Shown: piece after piece, positions 4,320 through 64,000 of the stretch | Numbering within the stretch: the first letter of the stretch is position 1 | Layout: each line of letters opens with the position of its first letter | Made by a program: the position numbers and the translations under genes | Notes under the pieces: model-generated | Told to the model about the DNA's origin: nothing | Seen by the model: the letters and a program-made list of their open reading frames with translations, nothing else | The model's database searches: none | Source of the DNA: Ignavibacteria bacterium | GTDB lineage: Bacteria; Bacteroidota; Ignavibacteria; Ignavibacteriales; Ignavibacteriaceae | NCBI GenBank assembly: GCA_021286645.1 | Contig: JAJTBZ010000079.1 | Coordinates: 1-64,000, forward strand | Length of the DNA stretch: 64,000 nt | Direction of reading: 5' to 3'

Positions 4320-4939
4320 AAACTATAGTATACCTGATAATTATTTTCTGTATTCCTTTGGTTGTTTGGAACTGTAAAAAATTTACGAGAGAAGAACAAA
4401 ATTATATAGTAAGAATTGAAGAACAGCGGAAATTAAAGGACAAAGAAATGCAGTCTGATCCACAATCTCCGTTTTGTTCTGACAGCAGCGTAGTATTTCA
4501 TCCATTAAATTACTACCCTGTGGACCCGTCATTTGTCTTTCATTCACGACTTGTGTTTCAGAAATATCCCGATACCATTGTTACCTATGGCACGAAGGGA
4601 GAAGAACGGAAGTCAATAAGAATTGGTTACTTACCTTTCCGATATAACGAAGTAGAGTATAAGTTAAATGTATATGAATCATGGTCCAGAAAAGGTGTGC
4701 ACTACCATGCATTGTGGTTTACTGATAAGACTACCGGGAAAGAATCATATGGTGTTGGCAGGTATCTGGATTTTGAATTGAATAAAGACTCTCAATACGT
4801 TTATACAATAGACTTTAATCTGGCGTATAGCCCATATTGTTCATACAGCGCAAAATACTCCTGCGCTATTCCATCGAAAGAGGATTATATTGATTTAGCA
4901 ATTACAGCAGGTGAAAAAAAGTTTCACCCGGATCATTGA
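4316..4939 (+). CDS. DUF1684 family protein, probable lipoprotein
   Basis: The ATG at 4316 overlaps the previous stop (ATGA), which is why it is preferred over an upstream in-frame ATG; the protein has 207 residues. The N-terminus MKTIVYLIIIFCIPLVVWNC is a hydrophobic signal ending in Cys. Asn at -1 makes it a non-standard lipobox. The C-terminal two thirds have the DUF1684 pattern: GKESYGVGRYLDF, IDFNLAYSPYCSYS, YSCAIPSKEDYIDLAI and AGEKKF. DUF1684 proteins are widespread in Bacteroidota and have no established function. Confidence 0.85.
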   Translation: MKTIVYLIIIFCIPLVVWNCKKFTREEQNYIVRIEEQRKLKDKEMQSDPQSPFCSDSSVVFHPLNYYPVDPSFVFHSRLVFQKYPDTIVTYGTKGEERKSIRIGYLPFRYNEVEYKLNVYESWSRKGVHYHALWFTDKTTGKESYGVGRYLDFELNKDSQYVYTIDFNLAYSPYCSYSAKYSCAIPSKEDYIDLAITAGEKKFHPDH

Positions 4940-5057
4940 TAGTTGTCATTCGGCAAATTCGAGCATTATAAGACATAAAAAGCGCTTTAATTATTATTGG
5001 TTATTTACTATTTTGTAAGAATCACTTTTCGAACAAATCGGTGGTAAGAAGTATATA

Positions 5058-8000
5058 ATGGCATTAGATTCCAAAACCCTTTCAAGTATTAGATCGAATA
5101 GATTATTCGAATCAATTAATCCCGATTCACTTACTCTCCAGGTAAGCAATAAAGATATTATCCTATCGAAAGACGGGGATATTATTTATCAGATCGGCGA
5201 TAATGCAGAGCACATTTATTTGCTTCTTGAAGGTGCAGTAAAAATTAAACACACTGTTGCTATTGATGGACAGCGAATCTTTGAAAAAGGTCCCGGAGAA
5301 TTTTTTGGTGAAAGAGAATTCCTCGATAAAACAAGTCGTACGTCTTCTGCAGTAGCTATTCGGGATTCCCGTTTAGCGATAATACGCCGAAAAGAACTTA
5401 GTGAATTGTTCAACCAGCATAGAAGTATTTTGAATAATATTCAGGGTACGGGAATTCTTCAGGAAGCCTTTGATGAAAGGCGGCAAACAAGAGAAGAGTA
5501 TCCTGCTGAAATCTCTTCATTGCTTCATTCATCAGAAAGCGCTTTAGATCCTTTCGCTTACCGTTCACCCTCTCAATCCGTGGATATGTTTCAGGCCCAT
5601 AAAACTACAGCAGAACCCGAGGTTCAGAAACCTGTTGATAATCCTTCAGTGAAGATGAAAACTATCGAGGATGAATTTCCGCACCGGTTTAACAAAACTT
5701 TCGAAGATAGTTTTACATTTGGAGAGTCGACTCCGATTGCGGAGGCGATTGAGGAAATTCCGAATATACCTGAAATGCATGACGATGAAAATTCAAATAC
5801 GCCCGCAAAAGATTCCATCGCTTGGGATTTTAATACTTTAGATTTTATTGAACCACCCGTTCCTCCTATTTCGGAAGCAACAGCTACCGAACTTGAGTCG
5901 AAAGAGGAAGACACTTTTTCTATTGACTCAGGATTTCATTTTAATTTACCGGATACTTCAGAGCCTTTGGTTGAAATGCCAGAGGAAGAATCGCCAGGGC
6001 AGGGTGTAGATTTTGATAGTATCCAGAATGATTCGGTCCCGCAACTCGGATTCAAATTTCCTCATGAGACTGTGGAGATTTCCTCAAATGAGCCTGTTGA
6101 GGACAGTGGCTTAAACTGGTCATTTGAATCTCCTGAAAATGAGCAACATGTCTCGCCGGTGCCTTTTGAAGACAGCGAGCTTCCCGAAGAGGAAGAAAAA
6201 TTTACATGGGATTTCTCCATTCCGGAAGAGGATACTGGTTCGGAAAAGCATGCTCCTTCTGACGAATTACCGGTAAGACCTGCTTACAGGGCCCAAGATA
6301 GTGTAAGTGATAATACGCTTCCTCAATCCGAATCAAATGACAAAACATCGCTCGATACAGTGTCGTCTGATGATTTCCATTTTGACTTTTCTGCCCAGGC
6401 CGAAGCAGTAGTTGAAAAAATACCGGAGCCTGATTTTGCCTTCCTTGACGATGATTTAGAACTACCAATTAAAGGTGGGACGTTTGATGAGTTTGGCAAC
6501 CTGATACCGGAACTGGCTGAAGAAGAAGTTGCCAAAGAAGAAGAGACGCAAGATAATAGTTCATCACAAAATATTGATGATATTTTGGGCGCTATTCCTT
6601 TTTCAACAGATTTCCCTTTAGATAAGGTAGAAGAAGAAATAGATGATCAGTTGGATCAAGAAGATGTGCTGCCTGCTGCAATTGAAGAATCTGAGCAAGG
6701 AGAGAGCGAAAATGCTCCCGTCGCTGAAATTTTACATGACGAACAGAATATGCTGGATGATTCACTTTTAGCACGTGAAATTGCAGATGCTCAGATGTTA
6801 GTAACAGAGCTTCATGGTGAAAGCATTGGCGCGACAAATTCCACCTATGCTGATCAACAATTTGGTAAAGAGGGATTTACTTTTACTTCTCCGCTTCAGG
6901 TTAATTCACTACCGGCAGAATTGAAAATTAATGATACCGGATTAACCAGAGAGCAGCTACACTTAATTATTGAAGCGGCTCAATTGGTTAATTCGCATGT
7001 AAAACTCGATCAGGTGCTCAACCAGATTGTGCAGGCAGCCTCTGCTTTAACCGGAGCCGACAGAGGTACGCTTTACATTGTCGATAACGCGAACTGCGAG
7101 GTATGGTCAAAAGTTATCCGAGGTGACGAAATTGAAGAAATTCGATTGAAGTTTGGCCAGGGGATAGCGGGCTGGGTAGCAGAGAAAGGTGAAATTGTTA
7201 ATCAGGCCGATGTGAGTGTCGATACCAGATTTGAGCCAACGATTGATAAAGTAACCGGTTACAGAACATTAAATATGCTTTGTTATCCGATTAAAAATAA
7301 ATCAGGTATTATTGTTGCGGTTATACAGTTGCTGAATAGTCGGAATGGAAGATTTAGTGCACTGGATGAAACTTTCCTTGAGGCGCTGTCTTCACATATC
7401 GCGATTGCATTAGAAAACGCGGAATTGGTAGAACAGATTCTCAAAACTGATAGACTGAGTTCCTTAGGAAAGGTTGCGAAGTTTTTAATATCAGATATTA
7501 AAAAACCAATTTTAACTATTAAGCAACTTGCTGAACATATCAAGAAAAAAAATGTTTCACCTGAGATAAATCAAGTACTTTCACTGATGATTGAACAATC
7601 TAATATTGTGGCTGATTTAGTGCTTACAACTCTTAGCTATTCTGAGGGTAAAACTGTATTAAATAAAAAAGTACTCAGCCTTCACAGGGTATTGGATGAG
7701 TTGCTTGATTTGCTTGCGGAATACGTTGAATATCGTAAAACTAAATTATTTAAAAAATATGGCCCGGACGTGCTGGTTAATGTAGATCGCAGGGAAATGT
7801 ATCAGGCATTTTTCCAAATAACAAAAAATGCATGCGATTCGATGCCTCAGGGCGGTGATTTATATGTAAACGCTCGCCTCACTGATGCCGGAAATGTTGC
7901 CGAGATTTGTTTTAAAGATAAAGGTACCGGAATTGCCCCGGGAATTCTGGAACGAATTTTTGAACCGTTCATGTCAATAGGAAAAACTCATGGTGTTGGA

Positions 8001-8120
8001 CTCGGTTTGCCAATTACCGAGAAAATAATTAAAGAGCATGAAGGCACAATTAAAATTGAAAGCAAAGAAGGTGAAGGCACCTCTGTAACAATACTATTGC
8101 CGGTTGTTAAAGAGTTTTAA
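5058..8120 (+). CDS. cNMP-binding/GAF sensor histidine-kinase-like protein lacking the phospho-accepting His
   Basis: 1020 residues, predicted cytoplasmic, with no TM segment or signal peptide. Residues about 14-130 are a cyclic-nucleotide-binding fold (IYLLLEGAVKIKH...GEFFGEREFL...RTSSAVAI). Residues about 135-620 are strongly acidic, repeat-like and probably disordered (many FHFDF/WDFSIPEE-type segments). Residues 630-795 form a GAF domain (GADRGTLYIVD...GQGIAGWVA...DTRFEP). Then comes a dimerisation helix and a HATPase with intact N box (ITKNACDSM), G1 (DKGTGI) and G2 (GVGLGLPI). At the position of the conserved His in AHDIKNP-type H boxes the sequence reads LIS-DIKKP, with Ser812. ATP binding is likely preserved but autophosphorylation at His is not. 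Followed 12 bp later by miaA. Confidence 0.85.
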   Translation: MALDSKTLSSIRSNRLFESINPDSLTLQVSNKDIILSKDGDIIYQIGDNAEHIYLLLEGAVKIKHTVAIDGQRIFEKGPGEFFGEREFLDKTSRTSSAVAIRDSRLAIIRRKELSELFNQHRSILNNIQGTGILQEAFDERRQTREEYPAEISSLLHSSESALDPFAYRSPSQSVDMFQAHKTTAEPEVQKPVDNPSVKMKTIEDEFPHRFNKTFEDSFTFGESTPIAEAIEEIPNIPEMHDDENSNTPAKDSIAWDFNTLDFIEPPVPPISEATATELESKEEDTFSIDSGFHFNLPDTSEPLVEMPEEESPGQGVDFDSIQNDSVPQLGFKFPHETVEISSNEPVEDSGLNWSFESPENEQHVSPVPFEDSELPEEEEKFTWDFSIPEEDTGSEKHAPSDELPVRPAYRAQDSVSDNTLPQSESNDKTSLDTVSSDDFHFDFSAQAEAVVEKIPEPDFAFLDDDLELPIKGGTFDEFGNLIPELAEEEVAKEEETQDNSSSQNIDDILGAIPFSTDFPLDKVEEEIDDQLDQEDVLPAAIEESEQGESENAPVAEILHDEQNMLDDSLLAREIADAQMLVTELHGESIGATNSTYADQQFGKEGFTFTSPLQVNSLPAELKINDTGLTREQLHLIIEAAQLVNSHVKLDQVLNQIVQAASALTGADRGTLYIVDNANCEVWSKVIRGDEIEEIRLKFGQGIAGWVAEKGEIVNQADVSVDTRFEPTIDKVTGYRTLNMLCYPIKNKSGIIVAVIQLLNSRNGRFSALDETFLEALSSHIAIALENAELVEQILKTDRLSSLGKVAKFLISDIKKPILTIKQLAEHIKKKNVSPEINQVLSLMIEQSNIVADLVLTTLSYSEGKTVLNKKVLSLHRVLDELLDLLAEYVEYRKTKLFKKYGPDVLVNVDRREMYQAFFQITKNACDSMPQGGDLYVNARLTDAGNVAEICFKDKGTGIAPGILERIFEPFMSIGKTHGVGLGLPITEKIIKEHEGTIKIESKEGEGTSVTILLPVVKEF

Positions 8121-8132
8121 ATCCCCTTTTCC

Positions 8133-9038
8133 ATGAATCAAAAATTAATTACCATTTTGGGCCCCACTGCTTGCGGTAAAACCCGCTTAGCAGTGGCGCT
8201 CGCAGCTAAAATTGGCGGGGAAATAATAAGCGCCGATTCCAGACAAGTTTATCGAGGCTTAAATATTGGCTCAGGTAAAGATCTGGGAGAATACATTGCA
8301 AATAACCATGCCATACCTTACCATTTAATAGATATTGTTGACCTGCCAACTGAGTACCATATATTTTCATTCGTTACCGACTTTCGAAACGCGTTTGAAT
8401 CAATTATCAGCAGAGACAAAATCCCGATTCTAACGGGGGGGAGTGGAATGTATCTTTCAGCTATCCTGGAAGGATATGATTTGATACCTGTGGACTTTGA
8501 ATCCGAACGTGCCGCCGAGCTAAAAGAATTGAGTGTTCCGGAATTACAATTATTGCTGCGGGAAAAGGCAGAATCGCTGCATAATTCAACAGATCTGTTA
8601 CTAAAAGATCGACTGGTAAAAGCTATCCTGATCAATGAACATAAAACAGCCCATAAAAATGACGGGAGACCTGTGTATGATTCAGTAACAATTGGTATCG
8701 CGCCACCTCGTGAAATAGTGAGGGAAAGAATTACGAAGCGTCTAAAAGAACGCCTGGAGACCGGAATGATTGAAGAAGTGGCTGGCCTGATACGTAATGG
8801 CATCCAATATGATAAATTGGAATTCCTTGGTTTGGAGTATCGATATATAGGGAGATATATCAGCGGCCAGATTAGCTATGATGAGATGTTTGAACGGCTC
8901 AATATAGCCATTCACCAATTCGCAAAACGCCAAATGACCTGGTTCCGGCGAATGGAAAAGAACGGGGTGAAAATTCATTGGATTGAGAGTCCGGATAGTG
9001 AGATTGCCGAAAGCATTGTTAGAGAGGCATTCTGCTGA
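8133..9038 (+). CDS. miaA: tRNA dimethylallyltransferase
   Basis: 301 residues. It transfers a dimethylallyl group to N6 of A37 in tRNAs reading codons that start with U. The P-loop GPTACGKT is at residues 10-17, followed by the family motifs SADSRQVYRGLNIGSGK (DSRQVY binds the substrate) and LTGGSGMYL. The C-terminal half carries RERITKRLKERLETGMIEEV and the FAKRQMTWFR segment that binds tRNA. Full length. It is closely spaced after the sensor protein and before a glycosyltransferase, so this is probably a run of cotranscribed but functionally unrelated genes. Confidence 0.97.
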   Translation: MNQKLITILGPTACGKTRLAVALAAKIGGEIISADSRQVYRGLNIGSGKDLGEYIANNHAIPYHLIDIVDLPTEYHIFSFVTDFRNAFESIISRDKIPILTGGSGMYLSAILEGYDLIPVDFESERAAELKELSVPELQLLLREKAESLHNSTDLLLKDRLVKAILINEHKTAHKNDGRPVYDSVTIGIAPPREIVRERITKRLKERLETGMIEEVAGLIRNGIQYDKLEFLGLEYRYIGRYISGQISYDEMFERLNIAIHQFAKRQMTWFRRMEKNGVKIHWIESPDSEIAESIVREAFC

Positions 9039-9039
9039 T

Positions 9040-10356
9040 ATGGCCGAAAATTTTTCTGCGCGAGTAAATAAATACCTGCAAAAATATGGCAGGCCTGGCA
9101 CTTATAATTTGAATAGTTCCCCGGATTTTATTGATACTATTGTTGTAATTCCGGCATTGGCAGAACGAAATAATTTAAACGCCCTCATAAATTCTCTTGC
9201 TGAACAGGACACCGATTCATTAAACCATACAGTATTCCTTTTTGTCGTAAATAATAGCGAAGATGCAGATGAAGAAGTTATTGCGGATAATTTGGACTCA
9301 TTGAAATATTTATCGGGTTTGTTTAGCGATGTTCAATATTCAAAACTTTCTTTGGCGATAATAGATTGTTCCTCTCCTGGCCAAAGTTTACCCAAAAAGG
9401 ATGCCGGTGTTGGTCTTGCCAGAAAAATCGGACTTGATACAGCTCTTACATTATTTACACATCAAAAACCGGACAATTTATTAATTTGTCTGGATGCAGA
9501 TTGTACCGTTCCCGAAAACTATCTATTGGTTTTGCGGGATGAAATGAAATCTCACGGGGTACATGTGGCCTCCATTCAGTATGAGCACAAGCTGCCATTT
9601 GAAGATGAAATGAACCTCCGCGCGATTATATGTTATGAGCTATTTCTCCGGCATTATACGCTCGGGTTGAAATATGCCGGATCCGATTACGCGTTTCATG
9701 CAGTGGGTTCTTCAATGTGTTTTACCGCTGAGGCCTATATTAAAGCCGAGGGCATGAACAAACAAAAAGCAGGTGAAGATTTCTATTTCCTGCAAAAGGC
9801 TGCAAAATTCACTTCAATACATACGATCAATAGTACGCGAGTTTATCCATCGCCGCGAAGTTCTTTTCGGGTACCGTTTGGCACAGGTCGAAGTGTGGCA
9901 CGTTTTTATGCGGACAACAGTAACGAATATAAAGTGCATGCACTTACCAGTTTTGTAATATTGAAAAAATGGCTTGCCGTGTTTAGAAAGAATAACTTTT
10001 TAGATGGCCGGAATTTATTACTGCTTGCTGATGAAATAGATGTTCATTTGGGAGAATTTTTGCGTGAGCAAAAATTTATTACAGAATGGGATAAAATCAG
10101 GCAGTGTGGCGGAAAGCTTGAACAGCAGCAACGAATATGGTTCGACGGATTCAAAACAATGAAATTGCTGCATTATTTACGCGATTACGGATATCCTGAC
10201 ATGCCCACTTTCGAAGGGGTGGATGCTCTTCTCGGGCAGATTAGAGGCGTTCTGCCACTAACCCGAACAGAGCGGCTTCCCGATATACAAAAACAAATTG
10301 AATATTTATTGCTTATGCGAAAAATTGCTTCCGGTGAATTTAGCATAGGGAATTGA
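9040..10356 (+). CDS. Family 2 (GT-A) glycosyltransferase-like protein
   Basis: The ATG at 9040 sits 1 nt after the miaA stop with AGAGAGG upstream; 438 residues. The N-terminal half has the GT-A pattern: IVVIPALAERNNLNALINSL, a charged connector (GVGLARKIGLD), then the nucleotide-sugar/metal DxD motif in LLICLDADCTVPENYL and GEDFYFLQK, the usual acceptor-side acidic block. No TM segments are apparent. The C-terminal 130 residues are helical and unassigned. The acceptor and sugar cannot be named; a role in envelope glycan synthesis is inferred from the fold. Confidence 0.75.
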   Translation: MAENFSARVNKYLQKYGRPGTYNLNSSPDFIDTIVVIPALAERNNLNALINSLAEQDTDSLNHTVFLFVVNNSEDADEEVIADNLDSLKYLSGLFSDVQYSKLSLAIIDCSSPGQSLPKKDAGVGLARKIGLDTALTLFTHQKPDNLLICLDADCTVPENYLLVLRDEMKSHGVHVASIQYEHKLPFEDEMNLRAIICYELFLRHYTLGLKYAGSDYAFHAVGSSMCFTAEAYIKAEGMNKQKAGEDFYFLQKAAKFTSIHTINSTRVYPSPRSSFRVPFGTGRSVARFYADNSNEYKVHALTSFVILKKWLAVFRKNNFLDGRNLLLLADEIDVHLGEFLREQKFITEWDKIRQCGGKLEQQQRIWFDGFKTMKLLHYLRDYGYPDMPTFEGVDALLGQIRGVLPLTRTERLPDIQKQIEYLLLMRKIASGEFSIGN

Positions 10357-10403
10357 TACCGGGAACTATTATTTTATAGTATTAATAATCACTGATTTTG
10401 AAT

Positions 10404-10979
10404 ATGGATCCACTCAATATAATTGCTGCTGTTAATATTATTGCATTATTAAGTGCAAGTGCAACCGGAGTTAAACGGGAGTTTCGTTCACAGTTGAGTT
10501 CGGTAAAAGAAAAACCGAAAACATGGCTGCAAAATATTCCTAACTTCTCAGCTTTTATTGTGTTATTACAAATAATCTCACTGTTTCAAGTCGGGACATT
10601 TACATATTCCGATAGTAACTTTAAGATCCGGGTTGTGGCACTGGTTGTGTATGGATTTAGCAGTTGGATGCAATTTTGGAGTTTCAAATCTCTGGGTAAA
10701 TTTCATTCTCAAAATATTGTAATTATGAAAAACCATGAGCTGATGCAAAAAGGGCCATACAAAGTAGTACGACACCCACAGTATTTGTTTCAGATTATTA
10801 CTGATTTAGCTCTCTCCATAGCTATTCTTAGCTATCTGTCCTTACCTCTGGCCTTAATTCAACTGCCGTTATACATCATGCGGGCCAGCCTGGAAGAAAC
10901 GTATTTACTCCGTTATTTTGGAGAAGCTTATACCGTATATAAAAAGAAAACGGGATTCATTATTCCTTTTATTGGCTAA
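10404..10979 (+). CDS. Isoprenylcysteine-carboxyl-methyltransferase-like (ICMT/PEMT-fold) membrane protein
   Basis: The ATG at 10404 is used; an in-frame TTG two codons upstream is an alternative, and no clear Shine-Dalgarno is seen for either. 191 residues with about five hydrophobic segments. The C-terminal GPYKVVRHPQYLFQI and LRYFGEAYTVYKKKTGFIIP blocks are the SAM-binding signature of the ICMT/NnrU/PEMT superfamily (RHPxY, then E...Y..Y...). The bacterial substrate is unknown, possibly a lipid or membrane-bound thiol. Its last 60 bases lie close to the start of the next gene, an amidase. Confidence 0.75.
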   Translation: MDPLNIIAAVNIIALLSASATGVKREFRSQLSSVKEKPKTWLQNIPNFSAFIVLLQIISLFQVGTFTYSDSNFKIRVVALVVYGFSSWMQFWSFKSLGKFHSQNIVIMKNHELMQKGPYKVVRHPQYLFQIITDLALSIAILSYLSLPLALIQLPLYIMRASLEETYLLRYFGEAYTVYKKKTGFIIPFIG

Positions 10980-10983
10980 AATT

Positions 10984-12525
10984 ATGGTAAGGAAAAGTTT
11001 CATACTAATTCTTGTATTTCTGATTACCTTGAGTGTCGTAATACTTGCCCAAAAAAGTGACCACGTTGTTCTTACTCATTCCGGCAGGCAGGTTTCATAT
11101 CAGGGGTATGTAAAATCCGGTATTCAATATATTTCAATTGAAGATTTTGCAAAAAACTGTAACATTGGATGTTCTTCAAATAAGAAAGTTCATAAAACAG
11201 AGTTAAAGAATGCTTCATACATTCTAAAATTCAGTGGAAATAACCCCTTTATATCTGTTTTTAACAGAATTGATTCAACCATTTCAAATTTTCAGTTGCC
11301 AGTTTCTACCTTCCTTATAAATGATAAAATTTATGTACCTTTTACGTATACCGCTGCTTATCTGCGTAAGTATTTACAGCAGGGTATTGATACAAGTATT
11401 CAGGCCGGGCATACTCCGGTCGTACCTGTTAAGACATTGACGGAGAAAAAGAAGGCACTAAACGAGAACAATGCTCAGTTGAAAGTTGAAGAAAAAGTTA
11501 ACGGTACTCTCGTACGGCTTAATTTTCCCGGTAAGATCGGGCAGCCAACAACTGAATATTCTTCAGGGAAGATAATAGTTACTATAAAACCAGGGACACA
11601 AAATTGGAATTTGTCTTCAGAGCTTAAAAATGAAAGCATAGTTCGTGATATTTCATACAAATTCCAAAATGGGCAGGGGATTTTTACCATTGCTATAAGT
11701 GATAATTATGCTGCGCATGAATGTATTAAAACCGGGGATAAAAACTTATTGTTAACCATTCATAAGAAACAGTTTGGCGATTTTTCGCGTGCGAATGAAA
11801 CTAAAAAAGGGAAATGGAAGTTTGATGTAGTAGTGATAGATGCAGGTCATGGCGGTAAAGATTATGGAGCGATTGGAATACACAATACCGTAGAAAAAGA
11901 TGTGAATCTGGGAATAGCTCTAAAACTTGGTGCCATTATTGAATCTGAAATGAAAGATGTTAAAGTAGTTTATACACGTAAAAACGATACATTTGTTGAA
12001 CTATATAAGCGTGGTAAAATAGCAAATGAGAACAACGGGAAATTATTTATCTCTATTCATTGCAATTCAGTAGCAAGCAAATCACCACAGGCGAATGGAT
12101 ATGAAGTTTATCTTTTACGGCCAGGCAGAACAGCGGAAGCAATTTCAATAGCCGAGAGAGAGAACGGGGTGATTAGTTATGAGGATAATCCGAAAAGGTA
12201 TCAAAAGCTAACGGATGAGAATTTTATTCTTGTATCAATGGCTCACGCATCGAATATGAAATATTCTGAAAAATTCGCCGACTTGCTGGATAAGCATTTA
12301 CGCCAGAATGTATCAATTACATCGCGTGGAATTAAACAAGCCGGGTTCTATGTTCTCGTGGGGGCATCAATGCCGGGAATTTTATTTGAAACAGGATATG
12401 TTACGAACGAACACAATGCGGCATATATAAAAAGTAAAAATGGGCAGGATGAAATTGCCCGATCGATGTTTCAAGCTGTAAAGTCATTCAAAATGTTTTA
12501 TGCCCGCGAATTGGGTGATGATTAA
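10984..12525 (+). CDS. N-acetylmuramoyl-L-alanine amidase (Amidase_3) with N-terminal beta domain
   Basis: The ATG at 10984 follows the previous stop by 4 nt and starts a signal peptide (residues about 5-22); 513 residues. The middle resembles a copper-amine-oxidase-N/AMIN-like cell-wall-binding beta region. From residue about 280 the Amidase_3 catalytic domain has the zinc-site motifs VVVIDAGHGGKDYGAIG (His), EKDVNLGIALKL (Glu), FISIHCNS (His) and the late PGILFETGYVTN (catalytic Glu). It cleaves the bond between MurNAc and L-Ala in the periplasm, probably during cell separation or peptidoglycan turnover. Confidence 0.92.
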   Translation: MVRKSFILILVFLITLSVVILAQKSDHVVLTHSGRQVSYQGYVKSGIQYISIEDFAKNCNIGCSSNKKVHKTELKNASYILKFSGNNPFISVFNRIDSTISNFQLPVSTFLINDKIYVPFTYTAAYLRKYLQQGIDTSIQAGHTPVVPVKTLTEKKKALNENNAQLKVEEKVNGTLVRLNFPGKIGQPTTEYSSGKIIVTIKPGTQNWNLSSELKNESIVRDISYKFQNGQGIFTIAISDNYAAHECIKTGDKNLLLTIHKKQFGDFSRANETKKGKWKFDVVVIDAGHGGKDYGAIGIHNTVEKDVNLGIALKLGAIIESEMKDVKVVYTRKNDTFVELYKRGKIANENNGKLFISIHCNSVASKSPQANGYEVYLLRPGRTAEAISIAERENGVISYEDNPKRYQKLTDENFILVSMAHASNMKYSEKFADLLDKHLRQNVSITSRGIKQAGFYVLVGASMPGILFETGYVTNEHNAAYIKSKNGQDEIARSMFQAVKSFKMFYARELGDD

Positions 12526-60037: not shown

Positions 60038-61264
60038 GTGAGCCTCATCGTTATTTTTTTAGAGGCAGTACTGGAAAGGAGGCAGGCTTTGTTGTTTGTT
60101 CTTGAGTTCCCGATAACCGATTTTCGATGTATACTTCACTCGCCATATAAACTACAGCGACCCTTTTGGCCCGTGCCTGCGGCAGGTGATATGCAGAAAA
60201 GTATCGGTTCTATAGATCGGCGTAAGAAAGGCGGGGTGCGCTCGTGGGGCGGTGAGGCAATTCATTCATCCGCCCGCCAGGCAGTTCATTACCCGGAATT
60301 AAGTAAATTCTTCATTGAAACAGGCAGCAGACATCGGTTAATAACAGAAGGCGCGTTTCGCCGGTTTTATTCTGATGGTAAATTTTTTGCCAAGTATGAA
60401 CTTGGTCTAAGCAATAACTTTGAAAATATTCTGCATGATATCGATCCTTTGGCACAGCCGGTAATTACGGGACAAATACTTAGAGACTACATTAGCATAC
60501 CTATTCATATTCCTCACCCTTCATACAATAAAACAGCCATACCCTTGTGGCAGGCCGGTACAGCCCTTTCGCAGCTTTTTTTATACTCGTCACATAGTGC
60601 GGCTGATAACAGGGCGGGGAACACGAATGTAGATCATGTGGCCTCGGGGCCGCCGGTATGTGTTGTGGAATTTGATGGCTCCATACCTGAAAGCGCGTTG
60701 CCGGCCGGGGTTTACGAGATACCCGGGTTGGCCGGGGGCGCGGTTAGCGTGTATCACATGTGGATTCGGTTAGAACAGCGTAATGATATACGTGTATGGT
60801 TTATACGGAAAAATGGAGAGAGTGCCGAAACGGATAAACTGGCACGTGAACTTCGGTTAAATCTATTGCGTCTGCACGCGGAAAAGGATATGGTAAAAAA
60901 CCTGTTCGCACTGTTGGAAAAACACTCCAGGAAAAATACTACCGCTGCCGAATTGCAACCTGAAGGTATGATTGTTTTAGGTCAGCGGTTAGAAACTCTT
61001 ACATCTAATTTACTCAGGCAAACACGTTTCGGCCTGCCGCAGGATGATATACTGCCTTTTGTTCTTCAGTTGGAAGAATTCGCGGTCCCCGGTGAGTTGG
61101 ATATATATCTTGATCTGGCCCGGCAGTTGCAAAATGTGTACGTTGAAACGAATATAAGAAAGCTGCATAGTATAACTACCAATGTAGTAGTTCAGGGCGG
61201 CAAAGTGGATTCAATAAATGTTACAGAAAAGGGAGATGTTATTATTAATGGGAACAAAAATTAA
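60038..61264 (+). CDS. Uncharacterised 408-residue protein with C-terminal G/N/V/I-rich motif (pair, upstream partner)
   Basis: GTG start at 60038; a later ATG at 60191 (AGG upstream) is an alternative. No signal peptide or TM. Recognisable but unnamed blocks: RRQALLFVLEFP, WPVPAAGDMQKSIGSIDRRK, FRRFYSDGKFFAKYELGL and PLWQAGTALSQLFLYSS. I believe similar segments occur in uncharacterised proteins of several phyla, but cannot verify this. Residues 275-375 are helical and Leu-rich. The last 28 residues (VVVQGGKVDSINVTEKGDV, then IINGNKN) form a strand-forming motif repeated at the start of the next protein. No P-loop, so not an NLR. Overlaps the next gene by 17 bp. Confidence 0.7.
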   Translation: MSLIVIFLEAVLERRQALLFVLEFPITDFRCILHSPYKLQRPFWPVPAAGDMQKSIGSIDRRKKGGVRSWGGEAIHSSARQAVHYPELSKFFIETGSRHRLITEGAFRRFYSDGKFFAKYELGLSNNFENILHDIDPLAQPVITGQILRDYISIPIHIPHPSYNKTAIPLWQAGTALSQLFLYSSHSAADNRAGNTNVDHVASGPPVCVVEFDGSIPESALPAGVYEIPGLAGGAVSVYHMWIRLEQRNDIRVWFIRKNGESAETDKLARELRLNLLRLHAEKDMVKNLFALLEKHSRKNTTAAELQPEGMIVLGQRLETLTSNLLRQTRFGLPQDDILPFVLQLEEFAVPGELDIYLDLARQLQNVYVETNIRKLHSITTNVVVQGGKVDSINVTEKGDVIINGNKN

Positions 61265-61589: not shown

Positions 61590-61802
61590 AGCCCCGGCAG
61601 GGCGGTGCTTCTGCTGCCAGGCAATGCAGGTGGTGCATTCGCCAGGCGGGTAATTATTCGGTAAAATTGCCCGGCCGAATGTCAGAAATATCATTAGGTT
61701 TTACCAAAAAAAACAGTATATTTTACGTAGTGAAGGAAAGAAAGTTAATCAGTCCGGTTACTAGTTGAAATATTGGATGCCCAGGCATGTTGGAGGTCAA
61801 TC
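61590..61802. other. G+C-rich intergenic region with short palindromes
   Basis: Contains a G+C-rich part (61590-61680) with imperfect inverted repeats, including ATTCGG (61656-61661) with CCGAAT (61675-61680) and GCC-AGGC-type units, some of which resemble a GCCAGGC unit inside the upstream gene near 60275. The right part is A+T-rich, with the GGAGG ribosome-binding site at 61792-61796. Confidence 0.45.
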
Positions 61803-62861
61803 ATGGATGCATTCGGGAAACTGAGTGAAGCAATTCTTTCTGATGTAATTGTAATCGCTGAAAGAGCTACCGAGAAACAATACAGGCAATGGCCTGAACT
61901 TACCACGCGTTATGCTTCAATCGGGAGAGAGAAAACTCTCAACGATAATATTTTTCATTTACAACATCTGGCCTCAGCAATTCGATTTCGGCAAACAGAG
62001 CTGTTTTGTGACTATATGAACTGGTGTAAGGTGCTGTTTACCAGCCTGCATATGCCATTAGTGTATTTTACCGAAAGTATAGTGATATTACGAGATACTC
62101 TGACCCAAATGGTAGAACCTGCCGAGGCACGTATAGTTGTTCAATATGTAAATCTCGGTCTGGAATCTTTCTCCAAAAAACCTTCGGTCCCTGCGGGTAT
62201 GGTAAGTGATCCCTCGCCGGTTGCCGTAAGCGCGTATATGTTTATGAATGCTTTATTACGGCATGACAGGGTAAGCGCTTCCCAAATGATAGATGATCTG
62301 ATAGCGGGCGGCATGGGTATAAAAGACATTTATTTACAGATTTTTCAGCCAAGCCAGATAGAAATTGGTCGGTTATGGCAGGAAAATAAAATATCTGTAG
62401 CCGATGAGCATTACTGCACGGCAGCAACACAGTTAATAATGTCACGGTTATACCCGCAAATATTTACCGGCAGAAAAAACGGCCGCTCTATGCTCGCTAC
62501 CTGTGTCTCGGGAGATTTGCATGAGATCGGTATTCGCATGATAGCAGATTTTTTCGAATTGGAAGGATGGAATACAATTTATCTGGGGGCAAACACCCCG
62601 ACTGAGAGCATAGTAAAAAGCCTGCAAACGGGTACGGCTGATTTATTGGCTATTTCCTGCACTATGAGTTACCACCTGCCGAAAGTTCAGGATTTAATCG
62701 CGGCCATTCGGGCAGAAGAACAATTGCGCGGGACAGTAATAATGACCGGGGGCTACCCGTTTAATGTCGATAAGGAGCTCTATAAGAAAATTGGGGCTGA
62801 CTGTTATGCTGCAAACGCTGTTGATGCGTTGCAGGTAGTTAAAACGATAATTCCATTTTGA
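61803..62861 (+). CDS. Cobalamin-binding sensor protein with W-x9-EH light-sensing signature
   Basis: The ATG at 61803 has GGAGG 6 nt upstream, deciding it over the in-frame TTG at 61773; 352 residues. Residues 1-130: unassigned helical region. Residues about 140-230: four-helix cap of the B12-binding_2 type, with W192 and E202-H203 (LWQENKISVADEHY), exactly the W-x9-EH motif of CarH-type photoreceptors. Residues 232-350: Rossmann B12-binding domain with D238-L-H240-E-I-G243, the lower-ligand DxHxxG motif, and TGGYPF. No MerR DNA-binding domain, so the output is likely through a partner protein. The histidine kinase follows 10 bp later. Confidence 0.88.
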   Translation: MDAFGKLSEAILSDVIVIAERATEKQYRQWPELTTRYASIGREKTLNDNIFHLQHLASAIRFRQTELFCDYMNWCKVLFTSLHMPLVYFTESIVILRDTLTQMVEPAEARIVVQYVNLGLESFSKKPSVPAGMVSDPSPVAVSAYMFMNALLRHDRVSASQMIDDLIAGGMGIKDIYLQIFQPSQIEIGRLWQENKISVADEHYCTAATQLIMSRLYPQIFTGRKNGRSMLATCVSGDLHEIGIRMIADFFELEGWNTIYLGANTPTESIVKSLQTGTADLLAISCTMSYHLPKVQDLIAAIRAEEQLRGTVIMTGGYPFNVDKELYKKIGADCYAANAVDALQVVKTIIPF

Positions 62862-62871
62862 GGCGGTTTGG

Positions 62872-64000
62872 ATGATGCAGCAAAATATAAACGGGTTTGG
62901 GCTGTTATGTACTCCTGAGGGCGAAATAGTTACCGTATATCGTGAAGAGTATGATCAGGTAAGTCAGATAGTTCCCGGGTATAATTTTACAGAATTTATT
63001 CACGAAACGGATAGATATAAAGCAGGGGAGTTTTTGCAGCAGGTTAGTACTCGTGGTTTGGCAGCTAAGTTCGCGCTGCATACATATATAGACGATGAGA
63101 TCTTATTATTCTATTATACCGGGGTTAAGCAGGGCACTGTACTGCTTATTACCGGAGTTACCCAGGAAACCGGCTTTGTAAAAACATGTGATGAGTTGTT
63201 GGAAATAAATAACGTGCAAATCAATTCGCACAGGGATATCGTGAGCGGATTAATTAAGGTGCCCCTGCATAAAGAAATTAGCCCGGAATCAGAACTGTTT
63301 GAGTTGTCTCGGGTAAATAATGAATTGGTAAACACCCGCCGGGAGCTTGTTAAGCGAAATGTAGAATTGGCGCAGTTAATTACGCAACAGCAGTATTTGC
63401 TTGGCATGGCAGCTCACGATCTGCGAAATCCACTGGGGATAATACACAATTTCTGTGAATTCCTGCGCGAAGATAATGCGGATACCATGAGCGAAGAGAG
63501 TATGGGCTTTTTGGAAATGATTGGTTCATCCAGTATTTCTATGCTGCATCTTATTGACGATATGCTGGACTACACGGCAATTTCTACCGGCAACCTTCAT
63601 CTTCATCTGGAATCGGGTGATTTGACAGAGTGCATGCTGAATAACCTGAAGACAAACCGGATACTTGCCCGTCAGAAAAATATTTCTCTGGTATTTACGC
63701 CTCCAACGGGGCCTGTAAATGTAAAATTTGATAAAAGAAAAATAGATCAGGTGCTGAGTAATTTCATTGGCAACGCGGTTAAGTATTCCGATCCCGGAAC
63801 CGAAGTGGTTGTTAGCGTTGAAATCCGGAATGAAGAAGCATGTGTATCAATTACCGACCACGGTATTGGAATTCGTCAGGAAGACTTAACAAAACTATTC
63901 AATGCTTTTACAGTAACGGGTAATAAGCCGACCGCGGGGGAGAAAAGTACAGGGCTGGGACTGTTGATAGTGAAGCGGGTTATTGATGAGCATTGCGGAA
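62872..64000 (+). CDS. Sensor histidine kinase, 3' end outside window
   Basis: ATG ATG at 62872 after GAGG; open to the window end (376 codons). Residues about 5-110 are a PAS-like domain (GFGLLCTPEGEIVTVYREEY...), then a coiled coil (ELSRVNNELVNTRRELVKRN) and the kinase core: H box MAAHDLRNPLGIIHNF with H182, N box NFIGNAVKYS, G1 DHGIGI, G2 STGLGLLIVKRVIDEH. All catalytic motifs are intact. No TM. Only the very C-terminus is missing. Coupled to the cobalamin sensor gene, from which it probably receives its signal. Confidence 0.92.
   Translation, partial: MMQQNINGFGLLCTPEGEIVTVYREEYDQVSQIVPGYNFTEFIHETDRYKAGEFLQQVSTRGLAAKFALHTYIDDEILLFYYTGVKQGTVLLITGVTQETGFVKTCDELLEINNVQINSHRDIVSGLIKVPLHKEISPESELFELSRVNNELVNTRRELVKRNVELAQLITQQQYLLGMAAHDLRNPLGIIHNFCEFLREDNADTMSEESMGFLEMIGSSSISMLHLIDDMLDYTAISTGNLHLHLESGDLTECMLNNLKTNRILARQKNISLVFTPPTGPVNVKFDKRKIDQVLSNFIGNAVKYSDPGTEVVVSVEIRNEEACVSITDHGIGIRQEDLTKLFNAFTVTGNKPTAGEKSTGLGLLIVKRVIDEHCG

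Follow-up and report, generated by a model that had tools for sequence, protein, structure and literature searches.

At the end of the window (by which we mean the whole stretch of 64,000 nucleotides of Ignavibacteria DNA analysed here), a gene for a cobalamin-binding protein is followed by one for a histidine kinase, and the locus raises the question of how a B12 photoreceptor that lacks any DNA-binding domain might pass on what it senses. An earlier note on this DNA proposed that the protein signals to the adjoining kinase, and this proposal is supported at the level of sequence, because the two genes are linked in a conserved manner and co-occur across genomes. Our preferred reading, to which we assign a probability of roughly 0.7, is that the locus encodes a stand-alone photocobilin and a dedicated PAS histidine kinase engaged in light-driven signalling in trans.

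A photocobilin with its globin placed first

The photoreceptor gene and its parts lie on the forward strand as follows.

61792 to 61796, + strand: GGAGG ribosome-binding site of the photoreceptor gene (from the sequence, 6 nt ahead of the ATG at 61803)
61803 to 62861, + strand: photocobilin photoreceptor gene, 352 aa (open reading frame; Pfam; best PDB matches are photocobilins)
61803 to 62186, + strand: phycobilin-type globin domain at the N-terminus (aa 1-128), carrying D48 and W74 (AlphaFold model; allophycocyanin B match; residues)
62217 to 62468, + strand: cobalamin domain, four-helix cap (aa 139-222), bearing G189, W192, Q193 and E202-H203 (B12-binding_2; model; conservation)
62475 to 62858, + strand: Rossmann cobalamin-binding domain, aa 225-352, with the lower-ligand H240 and GxxxP (G262-P266) (PF02310; structure match)

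On sequence and predicted structure, the 352-aa protein is a stand-alone photocobilin with the globin placed first, because its closest PDB matches by sequence are the photocobilin structures 8J2W, 8J2X and 8J2Y (SasPcob and AbDPcob; Zhang et al. 2024, PMC10979010), a profile built from 77 homologues recovers them in two stretches (along with allophycocyanins), and its model aligns structurally in two parts. In that AlphaFold model (mean pLDDT 94), aa 138-350 superpose on SasPcob (Z 26.9, rmsd 1.8) and the first 126 residues on allophycocyanin B (Z 18.2, rmsd 1.8). The globin also matches smURFP (Z 17.9), and the cobalamin domain matches the AppA-PpsR2 complex (Z 20.3) and AerR (Z 21.9). Pfam assigns aa 230-343 to B12-binding (PF02310, E 2.7e-23) and aa 149-216 to B12-binding_2 (E 1.5e-13), with a weak Phycobilisome match below the cut-off at aa 18-116 (E 0.021). 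These E-values, together with the invariance of W192, E202, H203, H240 and G243 in the alignment of the 77 homologues, show that the match is not due to chance. No DNA-binding or other output domain was found in the photoreceptor by Pfam or in the AlphaFold model, and Pfam, model and fold match agree that a MerR N-terminal domain is absent and that the globin occupies aa 1-128. The description of this gene as a stand-alone cobalamin protein was thus correct as to the missing DNA-binding domain but overlooked the globin, and its assignment to the CarH/LitR type, apt for the W-x9-EH pocket, gives way to a different one: the protein is not CarH-like alone and belongs with the photocobilins, an already published type of B12 photoreceptor. 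Against the NCBIfam model of the CarH family it scores 50.9 bits (cut-off 400).

Every motif residue named in the earlier note is present with the numbering given there (W192, Q193, E202, H203, D238, H240 and G243), nine residues separating W192 from E202. The published SignatureFinder signature of light-responsive cobalamin domains, GxxW, EH, GxxH and GxxxP (PMC11796333), is complete, in the form of G189-W192, E202-H203, G237-H240 and G262-P266. The Gln that follows W192, which had been flagged as a departure from Thermus CarH, is indeed there but is not unusual: position 193 is Gln in 70 of the 77 homologues and His in four, and in a sequence alignment Gln likewise follows the Trp of SasPcob, whose light state is a water- or hydroxide-ligated cobalamin, the bis-His state known from CarH being absent (PMC10979010).

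In the globin, Asp48 and Trp74 align with SasPcob chain residues 265 and 291, which are Asp270 and Trp296 in the numbering of the published work (an offset of 5, checked via Trp61 and His108); this segment of the alignment is weak on its own and is backed by the structure match. Asp270 of SasPcob makes key contacts with biliverdin rings A-C and Trp296 sets ring D, while AbPcob, with a His replacing the Asp, binds biliverdin weakly (PMC10979010). Asp48 is kept in 76 of the 77 homologues and Trp74 in all 77. Three residues before Asp48, at position 45, the window protein has Thr and 26 of the 77 homologues have Cys; the CxxD of these homologues resembles the CxRD of phycobiliproteins and could permit covalent bilin attachment. 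Upstream of the photoreceptor gene, a 408-aa open reading frame (window 60038-61264) has no Pfam match.

The partner kinase and its conserved pairing

The kinase gene opens with an ATG at 62872, after a gap of 10 bp, as had been read from the sequence before, and its parts are listed below.

62872 to 64000, + strand: PAS histidine kinase gene, 405 aa, of which 376 aa lie in the window, with the stop at contig position 64089 (open reading frame; Pfam; conservation)
62872 to 63168, + strand: PAS-fold domain at the N-terminus of the kinase (aa 1-99; model, fold matches, conservation; without a Pfam match)
63277 to 63381, + strand: signalling helix, kinase aa 136-170, ...ELSRVNNELVNTRRELVKRNVELAQ (conservation; also present in the fused form and in partners that lack PAS)
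63388 to 63588, + strand: HisKA dimerisation/phosphoacceptor domain, with H182 (Pfam; invariant among orthologues)
63730 to 64000, + strand: HATPase_c domain of the kinase, running beyond the window end (Pfam)

The kinase had been called intact, which holds for its HisKA domain, its HATPase_c domain and its predicted PAS fold, but the gene overruns the window. H182, the N box, the G boxes and the F box are invariant among nine orthologues. No Pfam model matches a PAS domain in the kinase; its first ~100 residues are nevertheless predicted to form a PAS fold (model pLDDT 82), with Z values of about 14 against the PAS-B domains of ARNT and HIF and with PpsR among the Foldseek matches. The signalling helix has the family consensus LYDELSRLNNELVNxQRELAKKNxELE, its N149 and R157 being invariant across 55 sequences, and no membrane part was seen in the kinase.

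The contig is 69,005 bases long, and the genes beyond the window are legible. The earlier note had suggested looking there for a response regulator; no simple regulator is present, but a 764-aa REC-PAS-PAS-HisKA-HATPase-REC hybrid kinase with two receiver domains begins 5 bp past the kinase stop (contig 64095-66389), followed by a gene that reads by eye as miaB. The hybrid kinase has no DNA-binding domain, and no DNA-binding regulator adjoins the kinase. Judged by eye, the hybrid kinase seemingly has Gln (YIVQPI) in its N-terminal receiver at the position of the usual conserved Lys, and its C-terminal receiver retains the Lys (SKP). A 'B12-binding' match at contig 64134-64370 was rejected, as it corresponds to a REC domain of the hybrid kinase.

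The link between photoreceptor and kinase is strong. We compared 88 loci from many bacterial phyla and from archaea, namely the window, seven relatives and 80 loci from a contig database, and located partner genes by six-frame search. A partner carrying the PAS-helix unit or the helix alone was found at 85 of the 88 loci (83 directly downstream, one upstream and one fused, at L072), a count in which the 80 database loci are the best matches to the window protein, biased to close relatives, and in which related genomes are not independent of one another. Three loci are partnerless, one of them on a contig that stops at the photoreceptor; L089 and L102 hold a photocobilin without a partner nearby. 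The 83 downstream partners divide into 60 PAS-helix kinases, ten kinases that have the helix without PAS, four PAS-helix-GGDEF proteins and nine for which the frame read shows no complete output. Of these nine, five, in Adhaeribacter and Rufibacter, stop after the helix, and the others are apparently cut by a contig end or split. The pairs commonly overlap by 4 bp.

A comparable picture emerges closer to home, where the adjacency that the earlier note had asked to be checked is borne out. At all eight other photocobilin loci from the same taxonomic order, the photocobilin gene is followed by a full-length orthologue of this kinase (30-38% identity). When 59 related genomes are compared, a full-length PAS-helix domain is present, as a single copy, in exactly the nine that have a full-length photocobilin gene (the one in G010 being interrupted by a stop), a perfect co-occurrence. 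The sole other match in the 59 genomes is a 34-residue helix in the REC-helix-kinase of G028, given which the idea that the signalling helix is unique to photocobilin partners does not hold absolutely. This recurring two-gene pair suggests a purpose for free-standing photocobilins.

Several individual loci are described here in their own right. The PAS-helix stands alone in Adhaeribacter and Rufibacter at L057:9051-9566, L066, L069, L081:8941-9510 and L104, and a GGDEF diguanylate cyclase replaces the kinase at L064:9035-10072, L109:3592-4584, L117:8957-10453 and L118:2703-3794. On a Verrucomicrobiales contig (L072), two long fusions start with a photocobilin (7980-11825 and 4697-7297), of which the 1281-aa one carries PAS, histidine kinase, receivers and Hpt at its C-terminal end. 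In G010, the photocobilin gene (L046:8839-9902) is interrupted by a stop codon and its kinase neighbour is intact.

Chromophore supply and heme context

A PduO-type corrinoid adenosyltransferase is present in the genome. Heme oxygenase of family PF01126, which does not include every bilin-making enzyme, was not found in the genome itself or in its eight relatives (9/9 genomes of the order); among 50 other photocobilin genomes, the only kind counted, it was found in four and not found in 46. The window's own genome also has no PF03992 (ABM) protein and no phytochrome PHY domain. Because no heme oxygenase, ABM protein or phytochrome was found in this genome, a bilin may be absent from the globin of the window protein, which may sense green light through AdoCbl only.

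Elsewhere, a ~99-aa ABM-family (PF03992) protein adjoins the photocobilin gene at 26 of the 80 database loci, in most cases directly upstream (for example L057:7674-7973, L081:7638-7937 and L055:7563-7910) and in two on the other strand. These ABM proteins are nearest in sequence to heme-degrading enzymes of the IsdI/HmoB/HmuQ type, at scores below the NCBIfam cut-offs. The catalytic residues of IsdG are Asn, Trp and His; all 26 ABM proteins have Trp65 and His75, with an invariant Ser at the position of HmoB's Asn. The Cys found three residues before Asp48 coincides with an adjoining ABM gene (Fisher p 7e-5), yet only four independent pairs remain on the tree, and because of this we rejected the association as unsupported beyond shared ancestry.

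In G035 (L042:5091-18195), the photocobilin-kinase pair ends a heme operon consisting of hemC, hemD, hemE, hemN, ferrochelatase and protoporphyrinogen oxidase, then a kinase, and the gene sizes and order of the G010 region (L046) match this operon. In both genomes, kaiB and a hybrid kinase come after the pair. Light control of porphyrin synthesis is plausible in G035 and G010. No heme-gene neighbour was seen in the window's genome.

Proposed signalling in trans, alternatives and known systems

In the dark, the photoreceptor would bind AdoCbl with His240 as lower ligand and with the adenosyl group packed on Trp192 and on the helix of Glu202-His203. Illumination with green light, or with longer wavelengths should the globin hold a bilin, would break the Co-C bond and let the adenosyl group depart, its loss shifting the four-helix cap and the oligomeric state. 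The changed photoreceptor would then act in trans on the PAS domain and signalling helix of the kinase and alter autophosphorylation, and phosphate would pass to receiver domains, for example those of the following hybrid kinase, whose part as phospho-acceptor is a guess. To our knowledge, phototrophy is not known for this group of organisms. We infer AdoCbl photolysis as the trigger from homology to SasPcob and AbPcob. Such photolysis has been described for photocobilins, which also modulate an enzyme domain on a separate protein, apparently via protein contact (PMC10979010). The contact site on the kinase is suggested by conservation and by analogy with AppA-PpsR: in purple bacteria, the SCHIC domain of AppA binds to the Q-linker, a long helix next to the PAS domain of PpsR, and AerR has been modelled on CrtJ in the same manner (PMC9144470). 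Because partners that lack PAS still have the signalling helix, as does the fusion, this helix is the leading candidate for the site of contact or for passing on the signal.

The same genes could be read without light. The photoreceptor might sense AdoCbl supply or tetrapyrrole status and report its cofactor state to the kinase, in which case the globin would hold a heme-derived or porphyrin-type ligand. The heme operon to which the pair belongs in G035 and G010, the IsdG-like protein adjoining at 26 loci and the many hosts from anaerobic lineages without PF01126 heme oxygenase all fit such a sensor. However, linkage to heme genes also fits light control of porphyrins, nearly all of the 77 homologues preserve the full photolysis pocket (W192, E202-H203, H240, GxxxP), and assayed proteins with this light signature respond to green light, all of which makes a cofactor-status sensor unlikely. 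The highest-ranking NCBIfam matches include the MtgC, MtbC and pyl_corrinoid models, which would point instead to a corrinoid methyl carrier serving a methyltransferase (MtbC/MtgC-like), but the scores fall far under the cut-offs (74.3 versus 370 bits and 59.5 versus 350), the neighbours examined are signalling genes, uvrB and miaB, and we give this reading hardly any credence. We know of no methyl carrier marked by a globin domain and a W-x9-EH pocket.

It could also be that photocobilin and kinase are inherited together without touching, the photocobilin acting elsewhere and the kinase sensing a PAS ligand of its own. The kinase does have a PAS domain itself, and L089 and L102 are two loci where a photocobilin has no partner nearby. 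Near-universal pairing and exact co-occurrence in 59 genomes weigh against such independence, as do the several output types found on one PAS-helix, the ten partners that lost PAS and kept the helix, and the existence of a fusion; we regard it as improbable. We therefore retain light-driven signalling from the photocobilin to its PAS kinase as the preferred reading.

The function of stand-alone photocobilins has been called 'less clear' (PMC10979010), and the conserved PAS kinase or cyclase partner offers a concrete target for them in many phyla. B12 photobiology would thereby widen beyond control by repressors and take in two-component and c-di-GMP signalling, and the locus would provide a light-switchable pair built of two separate proteins. 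More tentatively, and at somewhat less than even odds, the loci may represent a widespread new two-gene light system, in which a diffusible photocobilin acts on a PAS-helix receiver (with a kinase, a diguanylate cyclase or no output) in mostly heme-oxygenase-less bacteria and archaea, its globin holding another linear tetrapyrrole or none. In about a third of the loci, the alternative tetrapyrrole perhaps comes from the adjoining IsdG-like enzyme. This raises the question of which pigment, if any, fills a conserved bilin-type pocket in organisms that gave no match to the usual biliverdin-making enzyme.

The conserved trans partner appears to be undescribed in the literature searched, outside which lies the photoglobin study of Schneider et al. 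2022 (CSBJ 20:261). Photoglobin is reportedly a globin coupled to a B12-binding domain and has been proposed for signal transduction. The globin of the window protein is of the same lineage as photoglobin and the BBAG-2 globins (PMC10151467), a lineage linked to B12-binding domains. With SasPcob and AbDPcob it shares the combination of a B12 domain and a bilin-type globin, W-x9-EH, the lower-ligand His and the biliverdin-contact Asp and Trp, and with SasPcob also the Gln after the Trp and a stand-alone form. The globin comes last in SasPcob and is N-terminal here, and the AdoCbl domain of photocobilins can sit at either end (PMC10979010). Whereas AbDPcob is fused to a cyclase and a partner for SasPcob was only suggested from networks, here a separate, dedicated PAS kinase gene follows the photocobilin gene. 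CarH and LitR share the W-x9-EH type of AdoCbl photoreceptor domain (Z about 20), but the window protein lacks their MerR DNA-binding domain, has an extra globin and carries Gln in place of the His of the bis-His state. In AppA-PpsR and AerR-CrtJ, a separate protein with a cobalamin-type domain likewise acts on a partner made of PAS and a long helix; AppA has an additional flavin BLUF domain, neither AppA nor AerR has a globin, and the partner there is a DNA-binding repressor, in contrast to the histidine kinase or cyclase found here.
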